A DNA stretch of 16,515 bases, from positions 1 to 16,515 of the forward strand of contig JAFAFF010000285.1 of assembly GCA_023423605.1 (NCBI GenBank), given 5' to 3'. How positions within the stretch are numbered: the stretch's first letter is position 1; each line of letters begins with the position of its first letter. Position numbers and translations under genes: made by a program. The DNA is from Pseudomonadota bacterium (GTDB taxonomy: Bacteria; Pseudomonadota; Gammaproteobacteria; Xanthomonadales; Xanthomonadaceae). Positions 1 through 16,515 of this stretch are shown here, in pieces. The notes beneath the pieces are model-generated. The model searched no databases and was not told the DNA's origin. It saw only the letters and a list, made by a program, of their open reading frames with translations.

Positions 1-2
1 GC

Positions 3-2060: not shown

Positions 2061-2116
2061 GGCCGGGCCGCTCCGGCACCCCTGCCAGTGGAGCACCTTT
2101 CGATATTCCAAAAGTA

Positions 2117-2130
2117 TCGATCCGGATCGA
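2117..2130. promoter_or_regulatory. Perfect 14-bp palindrome upstream of the MFS gene
   Basis: TCGATCCGGATCGA reads the same on both strands. It lies in the 152-bp gap between the hypothetical gene and the MFS transporter, about 80 bp before the chosen transporter start. It could be an operator, but a perfect 14-mer can also arise by chance in GC-rich DNA. I see no convincing -35/-10 pair around it. Confidence 0.3.
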
Positions 2131-2212
2131 ACAGGTTATGGATCGACTCGGTTGGCGGATCTACTCTGGACAGGTCTTCCACCAGCGACCGCGCCTGCGG
2201 CCGAAACGATCA

Positions 2213-3481: not shown

Positions 3482-3532
3482 TGTACGGATATGGTACGGT
3501 CGGTTTTTCGGAATCGCACAGGGACGATGTGT

Positions 3533-3661
3533 ATGGGAAGCTGGACCACGATACTGTTTCTGCTGCTGATGACGTTTATTGCTTTGCTCGCGGTCGCGGC
3601 GGCTGTGACCTGGGTGGTCAAACGCGTATGGTATGCAGGAAAGGACAGGCAGCATCGCTAG
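3533..3661 (+). CDS. Small single-pass membrane protein (42 aa)
   Basis: This short gene begins 51 bases after the MFS stop. It encodes about 42 residues: a short polar start, one strongly hydrophobic stretch of roughly 24 residues rich in Leu, Ala, Val and Ile, then a positively charged tail containing V-V-K-R-V-W-Y and ending in R-Q-H-R. The basic C-terminal end predicts an N-out/C-in single-pass topology by the positive-inside rule. An AGGGA Shine-Dalgarno lies about 8 bases before the ATG at 3533, favouring it over the ATG at 3527 (44 residues). It could be co-transcribed with the transporter. The function is unknown, and I do not recognise a named family. Confidence 0.55.
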   Translation: MGSWTTILFLLLMTFIALLAVAAAVTWVVKRVWYAGKDRQHR

Positions 3662-3721
3662 CTGGAAGACTGGCGTTGGGCTGTGCCGAACGCTGGCTGG
3701 CAATCCCACGCCCGCAGCTGC

Positions 3722-3744
3722 GTAGAGCGGGGCTCTGCCCCGCT
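3722..3744 (+). repeat. SMAG-type REP palindrome (single copy)
   Basis: A GTAG tetranucleotide is followed by a hairpin whose arms GCGGGGC and GCCCCGC flank a TCT loop. This is the form of SMAG elements, the abundant short palindromes of Stenotrophomonas maltophilia. It sits between the ends of two convergent genes, where such hairpins can act as bidirectional transcription ends or protect mRNA 3' ends. Confidence 0.85.
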
Positions 3745-3767
3745 GCACGATGAAACCGCATCGGCCG

Positions 3768-4673
3768 CTACGCGAACTCCCCGCGCAGCAACGCAATGAA
3801 GTTGCGGACCAATGGCGTCACGCCTTCGCGGCGCCATGCCAGCTGCACCTCCGAATGCGCGCCACGGTCGGCCAGCGCGACGAAGCAGGCGCCCTCGACC
3901 TGTATATGATTGCACGAGGAGGGCAGGATCGCCGCACCCAGCCCGGCGGCAGCGAGACTGATCAGGGTCGATGCTTCGCCGGCTTCCTGCACGATGCGTG
4001 GAGTGAAGCCCGCCGCTGCACACAAGGCGATCATCTGGTCGTGGATCCCAGCACCGACGCTGCGATGAAAGCCCACGAATGGCTCATGCGCGAACTGCTT
4101 CAATGCCAGCACCGCCGTTGCAGGATCACGCCCGCGCAGCGCCGGATGGTCGCGATGCAGCACCAGCGCTAGAGGATCGGTGAACAGGCTGTGCGCCGCC
4201 AACTCCGGCGGCAGCACGCGCTTGCGGATGATGCCCACGTCCAGCACGTTCTCCAGCAGTGCATCGATCTGCTGCAGGGTGTTCATCTCGCGCAGTTGCA
4301 GGCGCACCTGCGGGAAGCGTTCGCGGTAAGCAAAGATCGCGCGTGGAATCTGCGGTACCAGTGGCGTGGCACGCGTCAGCCCGATACGCAGCTCGCCTAT
4401 TTCCCCGCGCTGCATGCGTTGCACTTCGTCCACCGCTACATCTACCTGCTGCAGGATCATGCGTGCCTTCTGCTGCAGAAGAACGCCTGCGTCGGTGAGC
4501 TGCACGCGGCGGTGGCTGCGCACGAACAGATGCGCGCCGATCAGCTGCTCCAGCTGGCGGATCTGCTGGCTGAGCGGCGGCTGTGACATGCCCAGCCGCT
4601 CGGCGGCCTGGCCGAAATGCAGTGTGTCGGCCACGGCGAGGAAGTAGCGGAGGTGGCGCAGTTCGATGGACAT
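3768..4673 (-). CDS. LysR-family transcriptional regulator, YnfL-like
   Basis: This is a DNA-binding regulator of 301 residues, the normal LysR length. The start at 4673 (M-S-I-E-L-R-H-L-R-Y-F) matches the family N-terminus; the frame is open upstream to 4775, but that extension is Arg/Pro-rich and lacks family character. The winged helix-turn-helix is at about residues 15-60, with A-A-E-R-L-G-M-S-Q-P-P-L-S-Q-Q-I as the core. The periplasmic-binding-like effector domain follows from about residue 90. From memory it resembles E. coli YnfL (same opening residues; R-E-M-N-T-x-x-Q-I in the effector domain; G-E-A segment near the C-terminus). The neighbouring YnfM-like transporter makes it a plausible regulator of that gene, although the two are convergent and share no intergenic promoter. 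The inducer is unknown. Confidence 0.9.
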   Translation of the reverse strand: MSIELRHLRYFLAVADTLHFGQAAERLGMSQPPLSQQIRQLEQLIGAHLFVRSHRRVQLTDAGVLLQQKARMILQQVDVAVDEVQRMQRGEIGELRIGLTRATPLVPQIPRAIFAYRERFPQVRLQLREMNTLQQIDALLENVLDVGIIRKRVLPPELAAHSLFTDPLALVLHRDHPALRGRDPATAVLALKQFAHEPFVGFHRSVGAGIHDQMIALCAAAGFTPRIVQEAGEASTLISLAAAGLGAAILPSSCNHIQVEGACFVALADRGAHSEVQLAWRREGVTPLVRNFIALLRGEFA

Positions 4674-4831
4674 GCAGGCCATTGTAGTGACAGGGCATGC
4701 CGGCCGGAGCGGTGCCCGCCGCATCGATGGCGCTCGTGGATGGCGTGGAGGATCGCGTACAAAGCAGCTTGGCATAATCTGTTTTCGGCAACCGGGAGAG
4801 AATCCCGCGTCTCACCACCGCTGTCGCCGCA

Positions 4832-5797
4832 TCAACGCTCCGAATGCCCGCTCTGGTCGTACTCCCGCGGTGAGAACAACTCCGGCTGGATCAGCTCCAC
4901 GAACGCGCGCGCCTGCGCCGACAATGCCTTTCCGCGCCGCACGATCACCCCGTAGCTGCGCTCCGGAAACCACTCACGCATCGACCGTGCCACCAGCTTG
5001 CCGGGGTCGGCATCGTTCAGGCACAGGGCCGGCACGATGGAAATGCCCATGCCCATCGCCACGTACTGCTTGATGACTTCCCAGCCGCCCACCTCCAGCG
5101 CCACGGTGTAGGGCAGGCGGTGGCGCTGGAACACCTGGTCCACGAGGCGGTAGGTGATCTGTCGTTTGGGCGGCAATACCAGCGGGCACCGTGATATGGC
5201 TTCCAGGCTCAGCTCGCCGCTCGCCAGCGGGTGGTCGCGCGGAATGATCAGCATCTGCTCGAAGCGGTAGGCGGGCGCATAGCTCAGGTCAGCCGGCACA
5301 TCGGTCATCGAGCCCACCGCCAGGTCCGCGGCGTCTTCCCGCAGCAGGTCGGTGCCGTCCGCGCTGATAGCGTTGTGCAGGGTAAGGCGCACGTCCGGGT
5401 GAACCTGCCGGAAGCGTTCGATGATGCGCGGCAGCAGGTAGAGGATGGTCGAGCTGTTGGCGGCGATGTTCAGCTCCCCGGCGTCGAGCCCACTGACCTT
5501 GTCGCGGAATCGCGCCTCCAGGCCGTCCAGGTCCTCCACCAGCGGTTGTGCCATCTCGAACAATACCTGGCCTTCGCGGCTGGGGATCAAGCGGCGTCCG
5601 CTGCGCTCGAACAACCCCACGCCCAGCTCCCGCTCCAGTGCCTGCAGCTGCTGGCTGATGGCCGGCTGGCTGACAAAAAGCGCTTCGGCGGCCCGTGAAA
5701 CCGAGCCCAGGCGTACCGTCTGGCAGAACGCCCGCAGCGGCTTCAGCCGATCGGATTTGTAGGAAAAACGGGGACTTGGCGGCGGACGTGTGGACAT
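4832..5797 (-). CDS. LysR-family transcriptional regulator divergent from aceB
   Basis: This regulator has 321 residues. The ATG at 5797 gives M-S-T-R-P-P-P and a short N-terminal extension before the winged helix; the longer open frame to 5938 overlaps the aceB promoter and start and is rejected. The helix-turn-helix is at about residues 31-56 (G-S-V-S-R-A-A-E-A-L-F-V-S-Q-P-A-I-S-Q-Q), followed by a linker helix and an effector domain. The segment Q-Y-V-A-M-G-M-G-I-S-I-V-P near residue 260 resembles the CysB-like branch. It is transcribed away from aceB, leaving 107 bp between the starts that holds a good inverted repeat. The classic LysR layout suggests it controls aceB-aceA and its own gene. 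Enterobacteria use the unrelated IclR for this job, so the assignment is inference from position. Confidence 0.9.
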   Translation of the reverse strand: MSTRPPPSPRFSYKSDRLKPLRAFCQTVRLGSVSRAAEALFVSQPAISQQLQALERELGVGLFERSGRRLIPSREGQVLFEMAQPLVEDLDGLEARFRDKVSGLDAGELNIAANSSTILYLLPRIIERFRQVHPDVRLTLHNAISADGTDLLREDAADLAVGSMTDVPADLSYAPAYRFEQMLIIPRDHPLASGELSLEAISRCPLVLPPKRQITYRLVDQVFQRHRLPYTVALEVGGWEVIKQYVAMGMGISIVPALCLNDADPGKLVARSMREWFPERSYGVIVRRGKALSAQARAFVELIQPELFSPREYDQSGHSER

Positions 5798-5813
5798 GGC
5801 GTCATGAGTATAA

Positions 5814-5836
5814 GCAAATCTTATGTACAAGATTGC
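5814..5836. promoter_or_regulatory. Candidate LysR operator between the regulator and aceB
   Basis: The arms GCAAATCTT and AAGATTGC are complementary except for one extra A and are separated by ATGTAC. The element also contains the T-N11-A shape usual for LysR boxes. It begins 17 bases upstream of the regulator start and overlaps the region where the aceB -35 would lie. This fits autorepression of the regulator and activation of aceB, by inference. Confidence 0.5.
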
Positions 5837-5858
5837 AAAAACTGCTTTGTCAAATAAT
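5833..5858 (+). promoter_or_regulatory. Possible aceB promoter
   Basis: TTGCAA at 5833 could be a -35 and AATAAT at 5853 a -10 (5 of 6 matches to TATAAT). The spacer is only 14 bp, shorter than the normal 16-18, so the promoter is weak by consensus and may need an activator. The -35 overlaps the right arm of the palindrome at 5814-5836. A Shine-Dalgarno GGAG follows at 5893, 8 bases before the ATG. Confidence 0.3.
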
Positions 5859-5904
5859 GCCGCGCATCGCACTGTGGAGACGTACCCAAAACGGAGTCGC
5901 CTCC

Positions 5905-7542
5905 ATGTCTGCCGTCGCTTCCGCCATCCCCGCCACATCGGCCAGGGCCACGCCCGGGATCGCCCTCACCACGCAGATCGCCGGGCAATCGGCGCTGCTG
6001 CCGGCGCCGCTGCTGGCCCTGCTGGTGTCCCTGCACCGCGCCGTGGAACCGGACCGGCAGGCGCGGCTGCAGGCGCGACGCGAGCGGCAGGCCTTTTTCG
6101 ATCAGGGCGGCCTGCCGGACTTCCGGGGCGACACCGTGACCATCCGTACCACGGACTGGAAGGTGGCGCCGCTGCCCGCCGCCCTGCAGGACCGCCGCGT
6201 GGAGATCACCGGGCCGACCGATCCGAAGATGGTCATCAATGCCCTGAACTCTGGCGCCAAGGTATTCATGGCCGATTTCGAGGACGCCACTGCACCCACG
6301 TGGCGCAACCTGCTGGCCGGCCAGCAGGCGTTGATCGGCGCCGTGCGCGGTGACCTGGAATTCACCGCACCGGCGACCGATGGCAAGCCGGGCAAGCAGT
6401 ACGCGCTGCGTCCGTTCGAGGAGCAGGCGGTACTGATCGTGCGTCCACGTGGCTGGCATCTGGACGAAAAGCACGTGCTGGTGGATGGACAGCAACTGGC
6501 CGGCGGACTGTTCGATGCCGCCGTATTCGCCTTCCACAATGCCCGCGCATTGCAGGCCAGGGACCGCGGACCATACTTCTACCTGCCCAAGCTGCAGAGC
6601 ATGGAAGAAGCCGCGCTGTGGGAGACCGCGCTGTCGCACATCGAGGGCATGCTCGGCCTGCCGCACGGGCAGATCAAGGTAACCGTGCTCATCGAAACGC
6701 TGCCGGCGGTGTTCGAGATGGACGAGATCCTGCACGCGCTGCGCGACCGTATCGTCGGCCTGAACTGCGGGCGCTGGGATTACATCTTCTCGTACCTGAA
6801 GACCTTCCGTCGCCACGCCGACAAGGTGCTGCCCGAGCGCGGCCAGGTGACCATGACCCAGCCCTTCCTGAAGGCCTATTCGGAGCTGCTGATCCAGACC
6901 TGCCACCGCCGTGGCGCGCATGCGATGGGTGGCATGGCCGCGCAGATCCCGATTGGCCATGATGCCGCCGCCAACGAGCAGGCGATGGCGCGGGTGCGCG
7001 CCGACAAGCTGCGTGAAGTGACCGCTGGCCATGACGGCACGTGGGTCGCGCACCCGGCGCTGATTCCGGTGGCAATGGCGATCTTCGACGAGCACATGCC
7101 TGGCCCGAACCAGCAGCACGTGTTGCGCCAGGACGTAAAGGCAGGCCGCGACTCGCTGATCGCACGGCCGACGGGGTCCATCACCCGCGCCGGTTTTGAA
7201 GGCAACGTCGAGGTGTGCGTGCGTTATCTGGCGGCATGGCTGGACGGCAACGGCTGCGTACCAATCCATCACCTGATGGAAGACGCGGCCACCGCCGAGA
7301 TCAGCCGCAGCCAGCTGTGGCAGTGGCTGCACACCGCCGGGCAGCAGCTGGACGACGGCACCGCCATCGACGCTGCGTTGCTGGATGCCACGCTGGAGCA
7401 GCTGCCGGCACGGCTCGGCGACCGTAGCGCACTGCCCGGTGGCAACCGGGTGGATGAAGCCATCGCGCTGCTGGCCGAGCTGAGCCATGCCGACGAACTT
7501 GATGATTTCCTGACCCTGCCGGCCTACGACCGCCTCGCGTAG
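5905..7542 (+). CDS. aceB: Malate synthase A
   Basis: The enzyme condenses glyoxylate with acetyl-CoA to malate, the second step of the cytosolic glyoxylate shunt, and allows growth on acetate and fatty acids. The protein has 545 residues (E. coli AceB is 533). The family signature G-L-N-C-G-R-W-D-Y-I-F is at residues 285-295, with P-R-G-W-H at 181-185, an acidic M-A-D-F-E-D motif at 122-127, and the A-M-G-G-M-A-A-Q-I-P segment near 340. The ATG at 5905 has a GGAG 8 bases upstream; the open frame further upstream crosses the promoter region. Its TAG stop is part of the GTAG that begins the first REP unit of the downstream array. It is probably co-transcribed with aceA, 272 bp downstream, and controlled by the divergent LysR protein. 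Confidence 0.97.
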   Translation: MSAVASAIPATSARATPGIALTTQIAGQSALLPAPLLALLVSLHRAVEPDRQARLQARRERQAFFDQGGLPDFRGDTVTIRTTDWKVAPLPAALQDRRVEITGPTDPKMVINALNSGAKVFMADFEDATAPTWRNLLAGQQALIGAVRGDLEFTAPATDGKPGKQYALRPFEEQAVLIVRPRGWHLDEKHVLVDGQQLAGGLFDAAVFAFHNARALQARDRGPYFYLPKLQSMEEAALWETALSHIEGMLGLPHGQIKVTVLIETLPAVFEMDEILHALRDRIVGLNCGRWDYIFSYLKTFRRHADKVLPERGQVTMTQPFLKAYSELLIQTCHRRGAHAMGGMAAQIPIGHDAAANEQAMARVRADKLREVTAGHDGTWVAHPALIPVAMAIFDEHMPGPNQQHVLRQDVKAGRDSLIARPTGSITRAGFEGNVEVCVRYLAAWLDGNGCVPIHHLMEDAATAEISRSQLWQWLHTAGQQLDDGTAIDAALLDATLEQLPARLGDRSALPGGNRVDEAIALLAELSHADELDDFLTLPAYDRLA

Positions 7543-7779
7543 AGCGGGGCTCTGCCCCGCTTGCCACAGAGCCCCTGAAGCCGGGCAGAGCCCGGCTCTA
7601 CCCCGCTGCCCAGGAACCACCCACCGCGTAGAGCGGGGCTCTGCCCCGCTTGCCACAGATCCCCTGCAGCCGGACAGAGCCCGGCTCTACCCCGCTGCCC
7701 AGGAACCACCCACCACGTAGAGCGGGGCTTTGCCCCGCTTGCCACAGATCCCCTGCAGCCGGGCAGAGCCCGGCTCTAC
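7539..7779. repeat. Tandem array of three SMAG REP dimers, 89-bp period
   Basis: Each unit is a forward SMAG hairpin (GTAGAGCGGGGC, loop, GCCCCGCT), a linker of about 20 bp (TGCCACAGA(G/T)CCCCTG), and an inverted SMAG hairpin ending in CTAC. Units begin at 7539, 7628 and 7717, an exact 89-bp spacing; each dimer spans about 63 bp and the 26-bp spacer CCCGCTGCCCAGGAACCACC... links one to the next. Differences are few: a TTT loop in unit 3, CCGGAC for CCGGGC in unit 2, and a GA/CA change in the linkers. The array fills most of the gap between aceB and aceA. Six stable hairpins in the mRNA could separate the stability or expression of the two genes. Confidence 0.9.
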
Positions 7780-7814
7780 AACGGCACCAAACCCTCAACG
7801 AACTGGAGAACGCC

Positions 7815-9107
7815 ATGAGCACGCTGCCCACTGCCGAACAGATCCAGCACGACTGGAACACCAACCCGCGCTGGCAGGGTATCGAACGCAGTTACAGCGC
7901 CGACGACGTCGTTCGCCTGCGCGGTACCGTCCATGTGGAGCATTCCCTGGCCCGGCTGGGCGCGGAAAAACTGTGGAACCATCTGCACGAGAAGGACTTC
8001 GTCAACGCGCTGGGTGCGCTCACCGGCAACCAGGCCATGCAGCAGGTGAAGGCCGGCTTGAACGCGATCTACCTGTCCGGCTGGCAGGTCGCCGCCGATG
8101 CCAACCTCGCCGGCCAGATGTACCCGGACCAGTCGCTGTACCCGGCCGATTCGGTGCCGGCGGTGGTCAAGCGCATCAACAACACCCTGCTGCGTGCCGA
8201 CCAGCTGCACCATGCCGAAGGCAAGGACGACATCGACTTCCTGCAGCCGATCGTGGCTGATGCGGAGGCCGGTTTCGGCGGCGTGCTCAACGCGTTCGAA
8301 CTGATGAAGGCGATGATCGAAGCGGGCGCAGCCGGCGTGCATTTCGAGGATCAGCTGGCGTCGGTGAAGAAGTGCGGGCACATGGGTGGCAAGGTGCTGG
8401 TGCCCACCCGCGAGGCCATCGAGAAGCTCAACGCCGCGCGCCTGGCCGCCGACGTGCTGGGCGTGCCGACCCTGCTGGTGGCGCGCACCGATGCCGAGGC
8501 CGCCGACCTGCTGACCAGCGACATCGACGGCAATGACCAGCCGTTCACCACCGGCGAGCGCACGGTGGAAGGCTTCTACAAGACCCGCAATGGCCTGGAC
8601 CAGGCCATCAGCCGCGGCCTGGCTTACGCGCCCTACGCCGACCTGGTGTGGTGCGAGACCGGCAAGCCGGACCTGGAGTTCGCACGGAAGTTCGCCGAGG
8701 CGATCCACGCGAAGTTCCCGGGCAAGCTGCTGGCCTACAACTGTTCGCCCAGCTTCAACTGGAAGAAGAACCTGGACGACGCCACCATCGCCAGGTTCCA
8801 GCGCGAGCTGGCCAGCTACGGCTACAAGTTCCAGTTCATCACCCTGGCCGGCTTCCATGCGCTGAACTACGGCATGTTCAACCTGGCCCACGGTTATGCG
8901 CGCCGTCAGATGAGCGCCTTCGTGGAACTGCAGGAAGCCGAGTTCGAAGCGGCCGAGCGCGGCTTCACCGCGGTCAAGCACCAGCGTGAAGTGGGCACCG
9001 GCTACTTCGATGCGGTCACCCAGGCCATCCAGCAGGGCCAGTCCTCGACCACCGCACTGACCGGATCCACCGAGGAAGAGCAGTTCCACAGCGGCCGCGC
9101 CGCCTGA
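7815..9107 (+). CDS. aceA: Isocitrate lyase
   Basis: The enzyme cleaves isocitrate to glyoxylate and succinate, the first step of the glyoxylate shunt, in the cytosol. The protein has 430 residues (E. coli AceA is 434). The catalytic signature K-K-C-G-H-M is at residues 185-190, with C187 as the expected nucleophile. Other family landmarks are the [10 protein letters not shown] metal/substrate loop, H-F-E-D-Q, R-T-D-A-E-A, and the N-C-S-P-S-F-N-W motif in the C-terminal half. The start at 7815 has GGAG about 7 bases upstream. The frame stays open back through the REP array, but that translation only reflects REP hairpins. No aceK (isocitrate dehydrogenase kinase/phosphatase) follows in this window, unlike the enterobacterial aceBAK operon. 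Confidence 0.97.
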
Positions 9108-9115
9108 CACCACGT

Positions 9116-9138
9116 CGTGCCGGGCTCTGCCCGGCACG
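9116..9138. repeat. REP-like perfect hairpin after aceA
   Basis: CGTGCCGGGC and GCCCGGCACG form a perfect 10-bp stem around a TCT loop, 8 bases after the aceA stop. The core CGGGCTCTGCCCG is the same as in the inverted SMAG arms upstream, but the GTAG tag is absent (GTCG in its place). No T-run follows, so it does not look like a standard Rho-independent terminator; it may mark the end of the aceBA transcript. Confidence 0.75.
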
Positions 9139-9240
9139 CCCTCCGAACGCCGCCATCGGCACCCTGTGTCCCGGCTCCGTGCGCCGGAATTCCGCCGGTC
9201 CGGCTGTCAAAAATGGGACGCACCGCACAGTTAAATCCGA

Positions 9241-9249
9241 TGCTATGCT
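9241..9249 (+). promoter_or_regulatory. Possible extended -10 promoter for the GGDEF-cyclase operon
   Basis: TGCTATGCT fits the extended -10 pattern TG-N-TATGCT. There is no good -35 at the usual distance, which such promoters can tolerate. Transcription would begin near 9256 and give a leader of about 35 bases before the ATG at 9290. Confidence 0.3.
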
Positions 9250-9289
9250 CCGACCTTGGAAGGGAGCCTCCGACTGGCGGACCAGGGGA

Positions 9290-10333
9290 ATGATCGGCAA
9301 CGGTGCAGCCGCTGACGTGTGCGAGCAGCCGGGCATCGCCGTGAGGGCGATGGCCGAGATCATGCAAGCCGTCCTCAGTGCCGAAGAGTTCGACCTGTTC
9401 GCCGGCTTCGCCACCCGGCACCGCGTCGGGCAGGGCCAGGATCTGTTTCGTCGCGGCCAGCGTGGCAGCAGCATGTTCGTCATCGCCACCGGCCAGGTGG
9501 AGCTGGATTTCGGCGAAGACCTGGTGATCAAGCGGCTCGGCCCGAACGAATTTTTCGGCGAGCTGGGACTGCTGATCGGCGATCATCTGCGCAGTGCCGA
9601 CGCCAGGGCCAGCGAAGATACCGAATTATTGGAACTCAGCCACGCAGATTTCCACCGCCTGGTGGAGCGCGAGCCTGGCCTGGTGGCCTACTTCCTGCGT
9701 CGCACCATCATGCGCGTGGTCAGCAACGAACAGGCGCTCATCGGCCAGCTGCGCCGTCGCAACCACGATCTGGAAACGGCGCTGGACAATCTCTACGTCA
9801 CCACCCACCAGCTCACCCACACACGCGAACTGGTACGTACTGACGAATTGACCGGGCTGCACAACCGACGCGGCCTGGCGCTCTATCTGCACGAATGCCG
9901 CGTGGACGATATCGGTCCCGCGCAGGGTCTGCTGCTTATCGACTGCGACAGTTTCAAGCAGATCAATGACCAGTTTGGCCATCAGGCCGGCGATCGCGTG
10001 CTGCAGAGCGTGGCCAACATCCTGCGCTCCATGGCCGGCCCTGACGACCTGGCCTGCCGGCTGGGCGGCGATGAGTTCTGTCTGCTGCTGCGGCGGGCCG
10101 ATGCCGCAACCGTCCAGCACGCGGCCGAATTCGTGCTCAACGCGGTCCACGGGCTGCTGGCACGCAGCCATGGCACCCCGCACGTGTGCCGGCTGAGCAT
10201 CGGCGCCAGCCTGCTGCGCGCGAAAGCGGACTGGAGCGAATGGTACGCCGGCGCAGACCGCGCGCTGTACCAGGCCAAGCGCGAAGGGGGCGACCGCCTG
10301 CGCTGGCCGCATGACGTGGTCGAAGCCGGCTAG
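9290..10333 (+). CDS. Cyclic-nucleotide-binding GGDEF protein (putative diguanylate cyclase)
   Basis: The product has 347 residues and two domains. Residues about 25-140 form a Crp-like cyclic-nucleotide-binding fold, with the F-F-G-E-L-G-L-L turn and an R-S-A-D-A-R-A phosphate-cassette-like stretch. A coiled linker leads to a GGDEF domain from D185-E-L-T-G-L, with metal-binding D218-x-D220-x-F-K and an intact G259-G-D-E-F263 active site, so c-di-GMP synthesis is expected. The inhibitory RxxD site, which should end six residues before GGDEF, reads G-P-D-D (250-253), so product inhibition is probably absent. From memory, X. campestris has the same architecture beside a class III cyclase (XC_0249/XC_0250), where cGMP binding stimulates c-di-GMP synthesis. 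The start is uncertain: the SD-like AGGGG lies too close to 9290, and the ATG at 9350 is an alternative. The cyclase gene begins 12 bp downstream, so the two very likely form an operon. Confidence 0.9.
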   Translation: MIGNGAAADVCEQPGIAVRAMAEIMQAVLSAEEFDLFAGFATRHRVGQGQDLFRRGQRGSSMFVIATGQVELDFGEDLVIKRLGPNEFFGELGLLIGDHLRSADARASEDTELLELSHADFHRLVEREPGLVAYFLRRTIMRVVSNEQALIGQLRRRNHDLETALDNLYVTTHQLTHTRELVRTDELTGLHNRRGLALYLHECRVDDIGPAQGLLLIDCDSFKQINDQFGHQAGDRVLQSVANILRSMAGPDDLACRLGGDEFCLLLRRADAATVQHAAEFVLNAVHGLLARSHGTPHVCRLSIGASLLRAKADWSEWYAGADRALYQAKREGGDRLRWPHDVVEAG

Positions 10334-10345
10334 GAAGGAGACCCC

Positions 10346-12796
10346 ATGCGCGGCGACACGGAAGCACCTGTCCACGTACCGATGATGCGGGCGCTGCTGT
10401 TCACTGACCTGTGTGATTCCACCCTGCTGGTGGAGCGGATGGGTGATGCTGCAGCGGCGGAACTGTTCCAGGATCACGACCGCCTTGTGATGGCGCTGCA
10501 GCAGCGCTGGACCGGGCAGCAGATCGACCGTTCCGATGGTCTGTTCATGCTGTTCGAACGGCCTGTCGATGCCTTGGGCTTTGCGCTGGATTACCAGCGC
10601 GGTCTGCAGGCGCTGGGCGGCAAGCGCAACATCCTGCTGCGCGCACGCATGGGCCTGCACGTGGGTGAAGTGCTGCTGTGGAACAACAGCACCGAGTCGA
10701 TTGCACTGGGTGCCAAGCCGGTGGAAGTGGAAGGCCTGGCCAAGCCGATGGCCGCGCGCCTGATGCAGCTGGCCCAGCCCGGCCAGTTCCTGGTGTCGGC
10801 CACCGCCGAATCGATGGTGCGCCGAGCCGCCGGGGATCTGGGCGAGGTCGCGCAGGGGCTGAAATGGAAGTCCTTCGGGCGCTGGCGCTTCAAGGGCGTG
10901 GCACAGTCAATGGAAGTGTTCGGCCTGCAGGACGCGGGCATGGCATCGACAGGGCGCCCGCGGCAGAGCGCCAAGGCCAGCCGTGATATCCCGTTCTGGC
11001 GGCAGCCGGCGATGATGACGGCTGAAGTGACTCTGGCTGCGGCGCTGCTGGTCGGCGGCTGGTTCCTGACGCGGCCGCAGCCGGCCATCGCTTTTGCTGA
11101 GCGTGATTGGGTGGTTCTCACCGATGTGCGCAATTTCACCGGCAATCCGGTGTTTGACGAGAGCTTAAACGAGGCCATGCGGATCAGCCTCGAGCAGTCG
11201 CGGCATGTAAACGTGTTGAGCGAACTGAAGGTCCGCGACACCCTCGGCCGTATGCGGCAAAGCCCGGACACACCGCTGGACGAGGCGCTGGCGCTGGAGG
11301 TCGCCCTGCGCGACGGCGTGCGTGCCGTGGTGGTGCCCTCGATCCGCGAGACTGAGGACCGCCTTCAGGTGACGCTGGATGTCATCGACCCACACACGCG
11401 ACGTACGGTCTACTCCAGCAGCGCTGCCGGTCGCGGAATGGAATCTGTGCTGACGTCCGCCGATACCGTGGTGGCGACGCTGCGCGGCCAGCTCGGCGAG
11501 TCGCGCGAGGGCATCCTGCGCGATTCACGCCCATTGCCGGACGTGACCACCGGCAACCTCGATGCCATGCGCGCCTATGCGCTGGGCGTGCAGGCATTTG
11601 CCCGGCAGCAGGACCGCGATGCGCTGGAGCATTTCGAACAGGCTACGCGCATCGACCCTAACTTCGCCTTCGCCTACATCGGCAGCATGCGGGTGCACTA
11701 TTCGCTGGGGCGGATGACGATGGCCGAACTCTTCTACCGACGCGCTGTCACGCTGCGTGACCACCTGACACCACGCGACGCGCTGTACCTGGCTGCATGG
11801 GGCGCGGAGTTCGAGGGTGCACCGGGCGATGTGGTGGAGCGCCGATGGAAGGCGCTGTCGGATCTCTACCCGGACTATTTCGGTGCGCGCGCCAATTTCG
11901 CCATTGCCCGCGCCAACCGGGGTGACTACGCTGGCGCGCTGGCCGCGGGCAAGCCCTTGCTTTCAGAGCAGAATGCGGCCCGTGCGCTGTCGCTGGATTT
12001 TCTTGGGCGCATGTCGCTGGCGCTTAACGATGTGGACGAGGCGCTGCAGTATTTCGTCGCATCGACGCGGGCCGGACAGGATAACGGTAGCCGGCTGATG
12101 GCGGCGGCCTATCTTGCACGTGGCGACTGGAAGCGTGGAGAAGAAATTCTGGCGCGCCTTCCGGACGAACTGCCTTCGCGCATCGAGCGCATCACCCTGG
12201 CTGCCGAGCGTCAGGACTGGTCGCTGGCGCGGCAGCTGGCCGAAGCAAGCCGCCGCGAATGCGGAAGCGAGCCAGTGCTGTGTGAGCTGTTCGCGGTTAT
12301 CGAACTCAATGTCCGCTGGTCATCCGGGGATGCACCCAGTCGCTCGCAGTGGAATGCTGTGATTGAACAGGGCCTGCGCACGGAAAGCAATGTGGACCGC
12401 AGTTCGCGACTGTTCACGCTGCTTGCGGCGGCTTGGCTGGCGCAGCGCGCCGGGCACCCCGGGATCGCCGAGGCGCACATGGCGCAATTGCAGAAGAACG
12501 TGGACGCGTTGAAGGACGACCGATGCCGGCAGATGCTGGCCATCGTGCAAGCCAACCAGCTGCTGGGCAAGCACAAGGCTGACGACGCGCTCGCACTGCT
12601 GCGGCCTTGGGAGGGCGATCGATCGCTGATCGCACTGCATGTCACCCTGCGCCAGATCCAGATCGCGCGCGGCGATGTATCCGCTGAGAACAGCCAGCGG
12701 GCGTGGCTGAGCGGCCAGCGTGGGCTGGCCTATGCCGATAATGTGGGCAGCTTCGTGCTGCAGACCCGCAATGTGCTGGATGTGGGGCCGCCCTGA
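10346..12796 (+). CDS. Class III nucleotide cyclase/TM/TolB-like/TPR protein (peptide modification system cyclase family)
   Basis: The protein has 816 residues. Residues about 13-195 are a class III adenylate/guanylate cyclase homology domain: L-L-F-T-D21-L-C-D-S-T supplies one metal-binding Asp and R-S-D64-G-L-F-M the second. In the N-x3-R transition-state motif the Arg is present (P-M-A-A-R-L), but Pro replaces Asn, so activity is not certain. One membrane helix lies at about 225-245. Residues about 250-390 resemble a TolB-like N-terminal domain (D-V-R-N-F-T-G-N opening), and about 405-790 are TPR-like helical repeats, presumably periplasmic. A strong AAGGAGA lies just before the ATG, 12 bp after the GGDEF gene. 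It matches my memory of the NCBI/TIGR family 'putative peptide modification system cyclase', found with NHLP-like peptides and SagB-like dehydrogenases in Xanthomonadaceae; both partners lie downstream here. It also corresponds to X. campestris XC_0250, reported as making cGMP. Confidence 0.88.
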   Translation: MRGDTEAPVHVPMMRALLFTDLCDSTLLVERMGDAAAAELFQDHDRLVMALQQRWTGQQIDRSDGLFMLFERPVDALGFALDYQRGLQALGGKRNILLRARMGLHVGEVLLWNNSTESIALGAKPVEVEGLAKPMAARLMQLAQPGQFLVSATAESMVRRAAGDLGEVAQGLKWKSFGRWRFKGVAQSMEVFGLQDAGMASTGRPRQSAKASRDIPFWRQPAMMTAEVTLAAALLVGGWFLTRPQPAIAFAERDWVVLTDVRNFTGNPVFDESLNEAMRISLEQSRHVNVLSELKVRDTLGRMRQSPDTPLDEALALEVALRDGVRAVVVPSIRETEDRLQVTLDVIDPHTRRTVYSSSAAGRGMESVLTSADTVVATLRGQLGESREGILRDSRPLPDVTTGNLDAMRAYALGVQAFARQQDRDALEHFEQATRIDPNFAFAYIGSMRVHYSLGRMTMAELFYRRAVTLRDHLTPRDALYLAAWGAEFEGAPGDVVERRWKALSDLYPDYFGARANFAIARANRGDYAGALAAGKPLLSEQNAARALSLDFLGRMSLALNDVDEALQYFVASTRAGQDNGSRLMAAAYLARGDWKRGEEILARLPDELPSRIERITLAAERQDWSLARQLAEASRRECGSEPVLCELFAVIELNVRWSSGDAPSRSQWNAVIEQGLRTESNVDRSSRLFTLLAAAWLAQRAGHPGIAEAHMAQLQKNVDALKDDRCRQMLAIVQANQLLGKHKADDALALLRPWEGDRSLIALHVTLRQIQIARGDVSAENSQRAWLSGQRGLAYADNVGSFVLQTRNVLDVGPP

Positions 12797-12818
12797 TGCC
12801 TGCAAGGGCGTCACTGGC

Positions 12819-13065
12819 TCAGGCTTGAGCGTTCACGAAGCAGAACGGATTACTGAACGCGGCCACTTGGGTGAGATGGCTGAGCAGCGCATCACGTGCG
12901 GCGGCGAACTGCTCCGGTGTTGCGAGGTGGGCGATGGCGAGGCAGCCGCAGCCGGCCTGCTCAGGGCTGGCGCCCAGCGATTCCAGTGCATCTTGTGGAT
13001 TGGCCGCAAACTGCTGGCGGAAGGCTTCGTCGGTCGGAGTTCAATCCTTTAGCGGCGGGAGGCAT
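12819..13065 (-). pseudogene. Frameshifted NHLP-like RiPP precursor peptide gene
   Basis: On the minus strand, 13040 to 12819 encodes T-D-E-A-F-R-Q-Q-F-A-A-N-P-Q-D-A-L and continues to G-C-G-C-L-A-I and a C-terminus N-P-F-C-F-V-N-A-Q-A. The frame has no start codon: a TGA at 13041-13043 closes it upstream. Removing one G near 13032-13033 joins it to an ATG at 13065 (M-P-P-A-A-K-G-L-N-S-D), giving an 81-residue peptide whose leader reads S-D-D-E-A-F. It aligns over its whole length with the intact precursor at 15093-15419 (D-(D/E)-A-F-R, C-L-A-(V/I), L-L-x-x-L-T, P-F-x-F). It faces the end of the cyclase gene 22 bp away. No Shine-Dalgarno is seen before the ATG, and the leader is shorter than usual, so the 5' end may be damaged too. 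A sequencing error is the main alternative to a pseudogene. Confidence 0.75.
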
Positions 13066-13135
13066 TGAATGTTGAGAGGCTTGTGTGCTGCCCGCATACG
13101 CGCCAACGTGCGCGCCTGTCTCCAGTGGACCGACC

Positions 13136-13660
13136 ACGCCGATCCGTCGTTGCAGCACTCTCTTCCTGGAAGCAGGCCAGCAGGTTGATTTCGACCTTCA
13201 GACCCGGGCGGAAGGTGGCAATGGCCCACGCGAGCATTTGGGCTGGAGGCGTGGACCCCTCATCTGGACGCACCGCTTCCGCTGGACGATGCACAGTGCC
13301 AGCTGCTGGGACGTACCCGTCCCGCCCGATGGTGTGATCCTGCAGCTCTCGGCGTAATGCGCAGCTGCTGTTGCCCGGGCTTCTCGACGCTTGGCTGCTG
13401 ATCGCAAGCACTGATGATGCGACCAAGGGTCCGCAAGTGCGGGATGCAGCCATCAGGCAGATGCACCGTTGGCCCCACACCGCCGTGATGCACCGTGCCG
13501 CCTGCTGGCGGCGGACCGGCCGAGGCCATCGATGGCAACCGCCGGGTGACCTGCGCTGGCGCCGATGCCGTTAAATACCGACGAGCGCATCGAACAATGG
13601 CTGGCCGGCCAGCACTGGTTCGCGGACGCTGCCGTGCACGTGGGCATAAGGGCCGGGTGA
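13136..13660 (+). pseudogene. Decayed second copy of the peptide maturation dehydrogenase
   Basis: Pieces in different frames line up in order with the intact dehydrogenase at 13896-15071. Piece 1 (13139-13230) gives I-R-R-C-S-T-L-F and Q-V-D-F-D-L...G-G-N-G, like R-R-C-S-A-L and G-G-T-G. Piece 2 (about 13245-13370) gives P-H-L-D-A-P-L, like A-H-L-D-E-P-V. Piece 3 (13371-13500) gives L-L-D-A-W-L-L-I-A and V-R-D-A, like L-L-D-A-G-L-L-I-A and V-R-D-A. Piece 4 (13564-13660) gives W-L-A-G-Q-H-W-F-A, like L-L-S-G-Q-H-W-F-A. The region matching residues about 136-270, including the flavin-site P-S-A-G-G-L motif, is missing, as is everything after residue about 300. An ACG at 13136 stands where the ATG would be expected. 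At least two frameshifts and a large deletion make function very unlikely. Its start is about 70 bp from that of the broken precursor, on the opposite strand. Confidence 0.7.
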
Positions 13661-13895
13661 GTCGATCAGGACGGTGGCGTAACATGGGATAACGCGGCAT
13701 CGGTATCCATGACGGCCCGTCCTGCACGGTCTTGAGAGCGCCACCATCAAAGTGCTCCGTGTTCAATTCATGTGCTCTGAGCGCCACCGCCATGTGGGAG
13801 GATGCTCTGCTATGGCAAACAGTCTGTGTCGCTGAATCGCCCAGCGCATTCGGTATCTTTGATGTACGACCCAACTTGAAGTAGACAGACCAAGT
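13661..13895. other. Intergenic stretch before the intact dehydrogenase
   Basis: I find no further recognisable dehydrogenase or precursor fragment, no strong promoter, and no REP in these 235 bases. The leader just before 13896 (GAAGTAGACAGACCAAGT) has no good Shine-Dalgarno. The composition is less GC-rich than the coding flanks, which fits decayed or non-coding DNA. Confidence 0.5.
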
Positions 13896-15071
13896 ATGAA
13901 TGTCTTGAGGTATCGTCGATGCTCTGCACTGGCAGTTCTTCCAGAAGAACAACCGGTGTTCTCCTTAGACAAGCTGCTGACAGGCGGGACGGGCGTCGAG
14001 TTCGAGCATCGGTTGCTGGTACGTGCAGCCCATCTGGATGAGCCCGTTGCCTTGACGATGCCCACCTGCATGTTCTTGCTCCAGAGCAGCGCGGAGCAGT
14101 GGCAGGTTGTTCCCGAAGAGCCCGATGCACGCGCCTTGGTAGTCGAATTGCTGGATGCGGGGCTGCTGATCGCCGAACAGGGTGAGCCGGTCGCACCAAG
14201 ACATGCAGACCAGCATGTGCGTGATGCTCATTGGCGGGCGCTCTCGGCGATCCATCACCGGCATTCCCGTTGGTCGGAGGTAGACAGCGCTGGCGAAATG
14301 GAGAGGAACCACCTGGTCACCGCACAGGATCTGGTCCAGCAGTTGGGCAAGCCGCCTGCCGAGGCGCCCCCCCGCATTCCAGGTGCCACAGCACTCCCAC
14401 GATCAGCACCGGATGCTGTTGCAGAACTCCTCGCGGGGCGCATTACCTGCCGCAACTATATGTCTGACCGCCCGCTGCCATTGGATAAGTTGGCTGGCAT
14501 GCTGCAGAACGTGTTGATGGCACAGGCCTTGGTAGAGACCGAGCCGGGCGTCCGATTCCTGAAGAAGAACGTGCCGTCGGCGGGAGGCCTGCACCCGTTG
14601 GAGGCCTATGTCATCGCCCGGAATGTGGAGGGGCTTGCGTCGGGCATTTATCACTACCATGCCATTGCACACGAGCTGGGACGTCAAGCTCGCCAGCCTG
14701 ACGACGTAGATGCGTTCTGTCTGCGCCTATTGTCGGGCCAACACTGGTTCGCCACCGCGCATGCCATGGTGGTGCTGGTCTGCCGGTTTGGCCGAAATTT
14801 CTGGAAGTACCGCAACCATGCCAAGGCGTATCGTGCGGTCAGCTTGGATGTTGGTCATGTCTCGCAGGCGTTGTACACCGCGGCTACCGCTCAAGGCCTG
14901 GGTGCTTTTGTCACCGCAGCGATCAACGAGACAGAGATCGAGGCGTTGCTTGGATTCGATCCGATGGTGGACGGGGCGCTGGCCGTGTGTGGATTCGGCT
15001 GGCGTGCCGCGCAGATGACTACGACCGAACTGGATCCGGCCGGAGTCGTCTGGCAATTGACCCACGACTGA
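13896..15071 (+). CDS. SagB-like nitroreductase-family dehydrogenase (putative peptide maturation dehydrogenase)
   Basis: The protein has 391 residues. Residues 1-175 form a Xanthomonadaceae-type N-terminal region, probably peptide-binding, opening M-N-V-L-R-Y-R-R-C. From residue 182 (R-I-T-C-R-N-Y) it is a SagB/ThcOx-like nitroreductase: P-S-A-G-G-L-H-P-L-E at 227-236, G-I-Y-H-Y-H, G-Q-H-W-F at 281-285, F-W-K-Y-R-N-H-A-K-A-Y-R near 305, and a C-terminal G-L-G-A-F...G-F-G-W-R. SagB enzymes use FMN to oxidise azolines to azoles in peptide natural products, but I see no cyclodehydratase (SagC/D) in this window, so the true reaction is unknown. It matches the family I remember as 'putative peptide maturation dehydrogenase, SagB-related', found beside the cyclase and NHLP-like peptide families. 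The gene is convergent with the intact precursor, 21 bp apart, so expression is probably independent. The start rests on homology, since no clear SD is present. Confidence 0.88.
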   Translation: MNVLRYRRCSALAVLPEEQPVFSLDKLLTGGTGVEFEHRLLVRAAHLDEPVALTMPTCMFLLQSSAEQWQVVPEEPDARALVVELLDAGLLIAEQGEPVAPRHADQHVRDAHWRALSAIHHRHSRWSEVDSAGEMERNHLVTAQDLVQQLGKPPAEAPPRIPGATALPRSAPDAVAELLAGRITCRNYMSDRPLPLDKLAGMLQNVLMAQALVETEPGVRFLKKNVPSAGGLHPLEAYVIARNVEGLASGIYHYHAIAHELGRQARQPDDVDAFCLRLLSGQHWFATAHAMVVLVCRFGRNFWKYRNHAKAYRAVSLDVGHVSQALYTAATAQGLGAFVTAAINETEIEALLGFDPMVDGALAVCGFGWRAAQMTTTELDPAGVVWQLTHD

Positions 15072-15092
15072 ACGGAGGCCTGTGTAGCCGCC

Positions 15093-15419
15093 TTAGGCTG
15101 CTGCGATAGTGGCCGTTTGCGGCCCCTCTTCGGCGAAGGTGAACGGGACCGTGTGTGCGCCCCGCGAGGTTAGGTTCTCCAGCAGACGGTCGTTACTGGA
15201 GGCGATGGCCTGCTTCGACGCCAGAGTGCGCACGGCTAGGCAACTGTGCCCAGCCAACGCGGCATCGGCTTGCCATTCCAGCAGGCCTACGCGCAGCAGT
15301 GCCTGCTTTGGCGAGGCTACAAAGCAGTCGCGGAACGCATCATCGGTGGCGAGTAGGGTCAGGAGTTGGTGGGCACTGGCCAGAGGGAATGGCGGGTGCG
15401 AGGTCGCGGATTGATCCAT
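15093..15419 (-). CDS. NHLP-related RiPP precursor peptide (putative modified peptide)
   Basis: The peptide has 108 residues. The N-terminal part (about residues 13-50) has the nitrile-hydratase-leader-like pattern of a helix, T-D-D-A-F-R-D-C-F at 25-33, a S-P-K-Q-A-L helix, and a G-L near 45. The C-terminal half contains C60-L-A-V, L-L-E-N-L-T at 79-84, and P92-F-T-F. Its only cysteines are C32 and C60. The conserved C-L-A and P-F-x-F blocks, shared with the broken copy at 12819-13065, are candidates for core or recognition sequence; no Gly-Gly cleavage site is seen. The ATG at 15419 has GGGAG 8 bases upstream; an in-frame TTG at 15449 would add 10 residues, but lacks an SD. It is the likely substrate of the convergent dehydrogenase. 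Family assignment (NHLP-related RiPP peptide / putative modified peptide) is from memory of the pattern and context. No peptidase-transporter lies in this window. Confidence 0.82.
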   Translation of the reverse strand: MDQSATSHPPFPLASAHQLLTLLATDDAFRDCFVASPKQALLRVGLLEWQADAALAGHSCLAVRTLASKQAIASSNDRLLENLTSRGAHTVPFTFAEEGPQTATIAAA

Positions 15420-15435
15420 TGCATCTACTCCCGTG

Positions 15436-15463
15436 GTTGGATTGTCCAACGAGAAGAATTAGA
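15436..15463 (-). promoter_or_regulatory. Inverted repeat and possible -10 upstream of the precursor gene
   Basis: On the minus strand GTTGGA-CAA-TCCAAC (15450-15436) is a perfect 6-bp inverted repeat with a 3-base centre, ending 3 bases before the GGGAG Shine-Dalgarno. Just upstream TCTAAT (15463-15458) matches 5 of 6 of the -10 consensus; no good -35 is seen. The repeat would sit at the start of the mRNA and could be an operator or a small 5' hairpin limiting ribosome access. Confidence 0.35.
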
Positions 15464-15511
15464 TGACTGGCACGGCACTCTACGGCATCTTCAGCCTAGC
15501 GACAGTAACGC

Positions 15512-16515
15512 TTAACCCGTCTCGAAATCCACCAGCACGGCCCCGTCCAGTACCTGCTGGCCGGGCTGCACGCGGAAACCATTCACCGTGCCATCGGCCG
15601 GGGCCTGCAGGGTGTGCTCCATCTTCATCGCTTCCAGCACCACCAGCGGCGTGCCACGCTTCACCTGCGTGCCGGCGTCCACCAGGGTAGCGACGATCTT
15701 CCCCGGCATCGGCGCCAGCAGGCTTCCCGCGTCGGCCACTGCATTATCCGATTCGCCCACCGGATCGTGCAGGGTAAAGCGGTGCTGGCCATCGGCGCCG
15801 AACAGGTATAGCTGATCGCCTTCGCGCAGCAGCTGCAGCGACCAGAGGCGGCCCTCCAGCTGCACGGACAGGCTGTTGCCGGTGGCGCTGCCAACCACCG
15901 CCGACGGCGCCGCGTCATCGCACTGCACGCGCCAGCCACCGGCCTGCGTCCACACCTTCAGCGTGTGCCGGCGCTCGCCCTGTTGCAGCGGCAGCACGCG
16001 CGCTGCGGACGCACCCAGGCGCCAACCATCCTGCACCTGCCACGGCGAATGCGGATCGCGCGCATCGCTGCCGGCCGGCGCGGTGCTGGCCACGGCGGCG
16101 ATGGCCGCCAGTTGCCACAGCGCATCGTCGCTGTCGCCCACGGCGCTCAGTGCAGCCTGTTCGCGTTCGATCAGCGCGGTGTCCAGCTTCGCGTTCGCGA
16201 ACGAATCGGTGTTCACCAGCCGGCGCAGGAAGCCGGCGTTGGTGGTCACGCCCACCACCTGGCAGTCGGCCAGGGCCTGGCTCATGCGGCGCAGCGCGGC
16301 CTCGCGGTCCACGTCCCAGACGATCAGCTTGGCGATCATCGGGTCGTAGTACGGGGTGATGCTGTCGCCTTCCTCGACACCGGTATCCACGCGCACGTTC
16401 GCCGAGGGCGTCGGCAGGCGCAGGCGGCGCAGGGTGCCGGTGGACGGCAGGAAACCACGGTCGGCATCTTCGGCATACAGGCGCGCTTCGATGGCATGGC
16501 CGTGGATGGCCAGCT
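15512..16515 (-). CDS. Biotin-dependent acyl-CoA carboxylase alpha subunit (probably methylcrotonyl-CoA carboxylase), C-terminal part
   Basis: The gene runs off the right edge; about 333 C-terminal residues are visible. The visible part opens with the end of the biotin-carboxylase domain (G-H-A-I-E-A-R-L-Y-A-E-D, then L-P-S-T-G, Y-Y-D-P-M-I-A-K), continues through a linker/BT-like region, and ends with a biotinyl carrier domain. The biotin attachment motif E-A-M-K-M-E-H has its Lys at 15623-15625, 36 residues from the C-terminus as usual. Such subunits carboxylate biotin with ATP and bicarbonate and pass the group to a carboxyltransferase partner. The linker composition and length fit 3-methylcrotonyl-CoA carboxylase (leucine catabolism), but propionyl- or geranyl-CoA carboxylase cannot be ruled out. 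The gene ends 92 bp before the RiPP precursor start on the same strand; they are probably unrelated. Confidence 0.9.
   Translation of the reverse strand, partial: LAIHGHAIEARLYAEDADRGFLPSTGTLRRLRLPTPSANVRVDTGVEEGDSITPYYDPMIAKLIVWDVDREAALRRMSQALADCQVVGVTTNAGFLRRLVNTDSFANAKLDTALIEREQAALSAVGDSDDALWQLAAIAAVASTAPAGSDARDPHSPWQVQDGWRLGASAARVLPLQQGERRHTLKVWTQAGGWRVQCDDAAPSAVVGSATGNSLSVQLEGRLWSLQLLREGDQLYLFGADGQHRFTLHDPVGESDNAVADAGSLLAPMPGKIVATLVDAGTQVKRGTPLVVLEAMKMEHTLQAPADGTVNGFRVQPGQQVLDGAVLVDFETG

Follow-up and report, generated by a model that had tools for sequence, protein, structure and literature searches.

What does the cyclic GMP (cGMP) relay of the xanthomonads sense? In X. campestris (Xcc) the XC_0250/XC_0249 pair makes cGMP, which binds the cyclic-nucleotide (cNMP) domain of its partner and stimulates synthesis of cyclic di-GMP (c-di-GMP), as described in PMC3770947. 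The tetratricopeptide repeat (TPR) domain of the cyclase is given as being of uncharacterised function there and in a 2019 review (PMC8042644). The same question is raised by a 16,515-nucleotide stretch of a Xanthomonadaceae genome (positions 1 to 16,515, forward strand, of contig JAFAFF010000285.1, assembly GCA_023423605.1; here called the window), in which genes resembling this pair lie beside a precursor peptide gene and a SagB-like dehydrogenase gene. We propose that the locus is probably a signalling cassette of polymorphic type: a peptide resembling a ribosomally synthesized and post-translationally modified peptide (RiPP) would be read by the TPR half of the cyclase and the reading passed on through cGMP to c-di-GMP. 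The genes and parts concerned are as follows.

9290..10333, plus strand: cNMP-binding and GGDEF protein, an XC_0249-like predicted cGMP-activated diguanylate cyclase (Pfam PF00027 and PF00990; alignment with PDB 5h5o)
10346..12796, plus strand: XC_0250-like class III nucleotidyl cyclase with a TolB-like and TPR half (TIGR04510; AlphaFold2 model)
10346..11005, plus strand: predicted cytoplasmic cyclase domain, amino acids 1-220, the more conserved output side (Foldseek; identity in bins)
11006..11071, plus strand: single predicted membrane helix, amino acids 221-242, where conservation in Xanthomonas falls (hydropathy; model)
11072..12793, plus strand: predicted periplasmic TolB-like domain (amino acids 254-385) and TPR superhelix (amino acids 405-813), the putative hypervariable sensor (model; identity medians)
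13896..15071, plus strand: intact SagB-like dehydrogenase (TIGR04511; model)
14805..14810, plus strand: Lys304-Tyr305 of the dehydrogenase, invariant in alignments
15093..15419, minus strand: intact NHLP-related precursor peptide of 108 amino acids, start codon found (TIGR04509), the same as database protein P0001, which is the window's own
within the window upstream of the cNMP-GGDEF gene, plus strand: malate synthase and isocitrate lyase genes

An earlier note on this DNA had read the first two genes as a signalling pair and had referred the cyclase, dehydrogenase and peptide to three NCBI families. The pair was confirmed: Pfam matches to cNMP_binding (67.8 bits) and GGDEF (128.5 bits) were obtained for the first protein, whose open frame extends back to 9179, and the gene for the TIGR04510 cyclase begins 12 bases downstream. 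All three family assignments were upheld at the curated cut-offs, with 1003.7 bits against 400 for the cyclase (TIGR04510), 514.5 against 240 for the dehydrogenase (TIGR04511) and 84.5 against 34 for the peptide (TIGR04509). The SagB-like and NHLP-like identifications thus stand, with the correction that the peptide gene lies on the minus strand and converges with the plus-strand dehydrogenase gene; the four genes are therefore not one operon. The observation itself was upheld; the allelic polymorphism and the decayed resident copies described below had been missed. Rfam at gathering thresholds gave no match in the window.

One locus was taken from each of 90 Stenotrophomonas genomes, and the 84 in which all five genes passed were used. 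Left out were L162, whose cyclase frame is not intact, L112, in which GGDEF and peptide failed to pass, and L123, L129, L132 and L185 (no isocitrate lyase in the stretch), as was the window, whose canonical peptide is broken. A first comparison of 16 loci gave identities of 92-100% for isocitrate lyase and 74-99% for the GGDEF domain (at least 91% among 13 of the 16), with identities as low as 26 and 20% for the two TPR halves and 29% for the N-half of the dehydrogenase, in discrete types. Among the 3486 pairs of the full sample, 619 pairs from 67 genomes were close (isocitrate lyase at least 97%, GGDEF at least 90% identical). Median identities in these were 99% for isocitrate lyase, 95% for cNMP and 94% for GGDEF; 75, 45, 30 and 23% for the cyclase domain, TolB-like, TPR1 and TPR2 parts of the cyclase; 25% for the peptide core and 24% for its leader; and 37, 52 and 59% for the N-half, middle and last part of the dehydrogenase. 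At the DNA level, blastn of six pairs of different type gave 81-96% identity as far as the membrane region of the cyclase, no more than two matches, each of about 100 bases, over the six pairs together in the next 2.4-2.7 kb, and 82-96% again, with small breaks, from a point within the dehydrogenase gene as far as the sequences extend. The same-type pair L069/L070 was continuous across the block at 93.5%. The edges of the block taper, the cyclase domain and the C-half of the dehydrogenase being intermediate by protein identity. Within types, selection was purifying in all parts, with median ratios of nonsynonymous to synonymous substitution (dN/dS) of 0.02-0.33 (71 pairs, 43 loci), indicating that these are working genes and not debris.

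The contrast between conserved and variable parts was sharper in Xanthomonas than in Stenotrophomonas. The sample comprised 26 loci of the 28 genomes with a dehydrogenase over cut-off, G244 and G259, in which this gene is in pieces, being left out. In 286 close pairs the medians were 95% for the cyclase domain, 24% for TPR2, 28% for the peptide and 39% for the dehydrogenase N-half. Between types, identity in bins of 20 residues was 80-100% as far as residue 220, 45% in the membrane helix, 80% over residues 241-260, 30-60% over 261-540 and 10-30% over 541-780. Peptide identity did not fall below 61% within six TPR types and did not exceed 51% between them. Since sensor half, peptide and enzyme differ as a block between flanks that are alike, we take the peptide to be a likely signal to the cyclase that is specific to each group. 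As a separate observation, the cyclase domain of L226 is 98% identical to the one in L209 and is followed by a cassette (9178-10688) whose dehydrogenase is inverted relative to the cyclase.

Matching of types was analyzed in the 41 genomes of the largest isocitrate lyase cluster, formed by average linkage at 97%. Here eight TPR1 types pair one to one with eight peptide-core types, and in 20 of 20 threshold settings the number of TPR-core combinations equalled the larger type count, one partition being nested in the other. Dehydrogenase N-types crossed TPR types in all 20 settings. Mantel correlations with the peptide core were 0.70 for TPR2, 0.64 for TPR1 and 0.61 for the dehydrogenase N-half (p 0.0005 each), while those with GGDEF were 0.08 for the peptide core (p 0.13) and -0.04 for TPR1 (p 0.77), indicating that cassette type is decoupled from genomic background. 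Three loci, L154, L156 and L157, resemble the L170-L182 group in TPR1 (75-84%) and core (52-74%) but not in the N-half of the dehydrogenase (41-46%); judged by these identities, they appear to be natural recombinants.

That the gene set travels together, a point which the earlier note had proposed to check, was borne out in a survey of 149 genomes of the family; of the outcomes which that note named as refuting, neither a lack of family hits nor a lack of co-occurrence was thus observed. Over cut-off were the cyclase in 93, the dehydrogenase in 91 and the peptide in 93, and cyclase and peptide agreed in 145 (91 with both and 54 with neither; Fisher p = 1.4e-35, relatedness not corrected), two further genomes having the one alone and two the other. 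All three genes were over cut-off in 89 genomes (91 with two partial dehydrogenases) and none in 53, and the system as a whole is carried by 95. The discordant genomes are G060, with the cyclase only, G132, with cyclase and dehydrogenase both partial at a contig edge and no peptide, and G017 and G126, in which the cyclase is in pieces. In G060 the cNMP-GGDEF gene and cyclase form locus L227 with no peptide or dehydrogenase match genome-wide, a possible orphan receptor. In the class at large the cyclase was found in three of 274 genomes, all three already within the family set. By genus, the dehydrogenase was over cut-off in 90 of 91 genomes of that of the S. maltophilia reference and in 28 of 35 of Xanthomonas. 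Three Xanthomonas genomes (G244, G259 and G261) have a separated or partial dehydrogenase, the parts in G244 lying about 13 kb apart. In a table of PMC4046712, X. fragariae, X. oryzae pv. oryzae (Xoo) and X. albilineans are entered as lacking a 'glyoxylate shunt' region, XCC0232/XCC0240; this region may include the present locus, in agreement with the lack of the system in some Xanthomonas genomes. Elsewhere, G028, G073 and G046 have nine, five and five TIGR04509 matches, respectively, all on the contig that carries the cyclase and dehydrogenase and no more than a few kb from these genes.

Gene order was established for 80 named loci, the best 80 of 294 in a dehydrogenase-profile search of contigs. 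The cyclase was present in 73, and the cNMP-GGDEF gene adjoined it in 69 of these; L068 and L080 end at a contig edge, and L063 and L078 are without it in the available sequence. An iterated profile, itself derived from this set of loci, gave at least one peptide match in all 80. The commonest order is isocitrate lyase, cNMP-GGDEF and cyclase on the plus strand, peptide on the minus strand and dehydrogenase on the plus strand, so that cyclase and peptide usually have their 3' ends facing and peptide and dehydrogenase are mostly divergent. In six actinobacterial loci of Streptomyces and Kribbella (L011, L012, L013, L015, L020 and L025) a divergent peptide-dehydrogenase pair has no cyclase in the stretch examined, nor did a whole-genome search of one of these genomes find one. 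Kribbella L015 has five peptides, and no shared partner was found among ten neighbouring proteins from three of the loci.

The AlphaFold2 model of the cyclase (mean predicted local distance difference test score, pLDDT, 89.5; predicted template-modelling score, pTM, 0.63) comprises a cyclase domain, a membrane helix, a TolB-like domain and a TPR superhelix. In the alignments of the genus, in each of which the window is counted twice, hydropathy gave one hydrophobic segment in 88 of 91 cyclase rows and two in three, and the single predicted membrane helix would place the TPR half outside the cytoplasm. Foldseek likened the cyclase domain to those of Rv1900c and Ma1120, and Asp21 and Asp64, which by the class III pattern would be the metal aspartates, are present in all 91 rows. 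The GGDEF motif is kept in 90 of 90 rows. The cNMP domain aligns with PDB 5h5o at 157 bits with its Asn-Glu cGMP-contact pair retained; the pair reads NE in 79 of 90 rows, SE in nine and HE in two. These 11 SE or HE rows are unlike the account in PMC3770947, which calls the pair conserved in all xanthomonad homologues. The likeness to XC_0249/XC_0250 drawn in the earlier note fits in architecture (a class III cyclase with a TPR half adjacent to a cNMP-GGDEF protein), in gene order and in the contact pair of the window. In contrast to the published relay, a RiPP precursor and a SagB-like enzyme here form a polymorphic cassette together with the TPR half.

The dehydrogenase model (pLDDT 92.2) matched ThcOx, BmdC and McbC as best PDB folds (E 5e-14; TM-score about 0.4-0.5 by query length). 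Lys304-Tyr305, presumably equivalent to the catalytic pair of azoline oxidases, is invariant in 46 of 46 rows and in 91 of 91 rows of the genus. Fold and Lys-Tyr pair are thus as in the SagB/McbC/ThcOx azoline dehydrogenases; the difference lies in the YcaO cyclodehydratase, which was over cut-off in nine of the 95 system genomes and not in the other 86. This makes an azoline substrate, and with it azole chemistry, unlikely, and YcaO was rejected as a general partner. A C39 peptidase was found in 66 of the 95 system genomes against 25 of the 54 others (Fisher p 0.008); with 29 system genomes lacking one, a C39 exporter is weakly enriched and was rejected as an obligate partner. The remark in the earlier note that no classical exporter or cyclodehydratase is present agrees with the matches listed for the window proteins scanned, among which there was neither a YcaO cyclodehydratase nor a C39-peptidase exporter. 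The peptide itself shares an NHLP-related leader with the NHLP/proteusin RiPPs and differs from them in that no exporter or cyclodehydratase was recognised in the window and that its core varies by receptor type.

The window itself is a mosaic. The gap of about 1.1 kb between cyclase and intact dehydrogenase is the canonical slot, which holds an intact peptide in relatives. Here it contains a broken second peptide and a fragmented second dehydrogenase:

about 12825..13100, minus strand: remnant of a resident TIGR04509-type peptide, occupying the canonical slot and interrupted by an in-frame stop (tblastn to the L164 and other peptides)
about 13106..13643, plus strand: decayed resident SagB-like dehydrogenase, fragments in three frames (tblastn, blastn)

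Behind these broken copies lies the intact dehydrogenase-peptide pair, which is of a different type. The isocitrate lyase of the window is nearest to those of L155 and L144 (97%), its cNMP-GGDEF protein to that of L139, its cyclase domain to that of L115 (94%), its TPR halves to those of L164 (58 and 51%) and its intact dehydrogenase to that of L200, and the broken resident peptide is closest to that of L164. The opposite state is found in L001, from the same genome as L200, where the canonical peptide is intact and the second one, downstream, is split in two (11276-11648); L191 and L199 retain both peptides. The state of the window looks like cassette turnover caught midway.

If the locus is a signalling cassette, the SagB-like dehydrogenase would oxidise, and so mature, the small RiPP-like peptide, which would leave the cytoplasm by an unlinked route and bind the predicted periplasmic TPR half, gating the cyclase. 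The resulting cGMP would drive c-di-GMP synthesis by the cNMP-GGDEF protein, a step known from one relative (PMC3770947). The block would be exchanged between relatives by recombination, and its types would differ in specificity, that is, act as pherotypes. The suggestion in the earlier note that the peptide signals through the periplasmic part of the cyclase receives strong circumstantial support from the co-varying cassette, the mechanism being a predicted one.

A number of observations weigh against this proposal, the chief ones being physical linkage and the lack of an exporter. Neither an exporter nor a protease was found in the locus, and the intact peptide of the window lies outside the canonical slot. 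According to PMC3770947, the isolated Xcc cyclase domain is active and restores biofilm, so that gating of the cyclase by its TPR half is a putative step. Since the matched parts form one contiguous block, the matching of receptor and peptide types may be due to linkage alone. With one genome per species in the sample, the polymorphism described is one between species. In partial correlations with TPR2 given the dehydrogenase N-half, the leader (0.58) followed TPR2 at least as well as the core (0.51), leaving a clean split into core-receptor and leader-enzyme matching unsupported. Divergence in Stenotrophomonas begins inside the cyclase domain (40-45% at amino acids 161-200), and the output side is thus not fully constant. 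No median dN/dS above 1 that would indicate positive selection within types was obtained in the 71 pairs from 43 loci. Within types, the TPR helices assigned as B were more variable (0.26) than those assigned as A (0.17), the register being our own assignment; a concave TPR groove as the variable face, which had been considered, is accordingly unsupported.

Other explanations of the same data have to be set beside a peptide signal. It is rather unlikely that the peptide is a bacteriocin-like antagonist, with the outer half of the cyclase sensing it or protecting against it in a weapon-and-recognition cassette with a cGMP alarm. Matched polymorphic cassettes are typical of toxin-immunity sets too, the six actinobacterial loci without a cyclase nearby suggest that the peptide can have an independent role, and some genomes have several peptides per locus; however, neither an exporter nor a small immunity gene was recognised in the window, and the partner is a member of the guanylate cyclase family that adjoins a cNMP-GGDEF gene in 69 of 73 cyclase loci. 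Linkage within the contiguous block accounts equally well for the correlations if an external driver (phage, host or competitor) recognises the outer half of the cyclase and peptide and dehydrogenase merely hitchhike, an explanation that we consider improbable given that the peptide core (25%) and the dehydrogenase N-half (37%) diverge about as much as the sensor, with purifying selection within types, and that the genes co-occur as a set.

The reverse direction of control, in which second messengers govern production of the modified peptide and the peptide is output and not input, was also raised in the earlier note. The relay is adjacent, and a divergent peptide and dehydrogenase could share a regulated promoter. 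The single test applied gave this no support: in 63 peptide-dehydrogenase spacers (40-600 bases, of 88) Clp/CRP-type sites with at most two mismatches were found at one locus against 1.5 expected, and such control leaves the co-variation of the cyclase sensor half with the peptide unexplained, so that we give it a slim chance. As a side observation on these spacers, GCCGATA or its complement occurs in 17 of the 63 against 0.5 expected from shuffles, relatedness not being controlled. That the genes are unrelated neighbours near the glyoxylate shunt genes is scarcely credible in view of co-occurrence in 149 genomes and co-variation in 84 and 26 loci; it would fit the main text of the relay study (PMC3770947), in which the word 'peptide' is absent, as are 'operon' and 'XC_0251'.

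The nearest parallels to the proposed signalling cassette are found in Gram-positive systems of another make. In agrBDC and comQXPA a processing enzyme, a peptide precursor and the input domain of the receptor are adjacent, hypervariable and matched, and the output domain and flanks are conserved. The present locus has the same anatomy of a hypervariable block between conserved flanks, its cyclase domain in Stenotrophomonas being partly conserved (median 75%), but no homology was recognised, and it has a guanylate-cyclase-type TPR receptor, an NHLP-related peptide, a SagB-like enzyme and Gram-negative hosts. Neither AgrB or ComQ nor a histidine kinase receptor was among the matches listed for the window proteins scanned. 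By analogy, the cassette would work like agr and comQXPA and be a member of neither. It agrees with the 'putative peptide modification system' of TIGR04509, TIGR04510 and TIGR04511 in that all three families are over cut-off and co-localised; the family names are without the cNMP-GGDEF partner, a signalling role and the allelic cassette structure. In keeping with the earlier note, no paper joining the relay with the peptide families was found in the open literature, most subscription papers lying outside the coverage. Relay and families have each been described on their own; as far as this coverage goes, their joining and the allelic cassette structure are new.

The cassette structure names a candidate ligand for the cGMP relay, encoded next to the cyclase. 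We see about an even chance that this is the first Gram-negative polymorphic (pherotype) peptide-signalling system, with a nucleotidyl cyclase as receptor, in which closely related Stenotrophomonas and Xanthomonas would each have their own version of a SagB-modified peptide and its guanylate cyclase receptor, deaf to the other versions and exchanged as a cassette, and kin identity would be passed on through cGMP to c-di-GMP. If so, it would be a peptide pherotype system like agr and comQXPA in which a cyclase replaces the histidine kinase, and would give a reason for possible differences in biofilm signalling between close relatives. The locus also points to a YcaO-independent SagB-like peptide chemistry, in 95 of the 149 genomes of the family.

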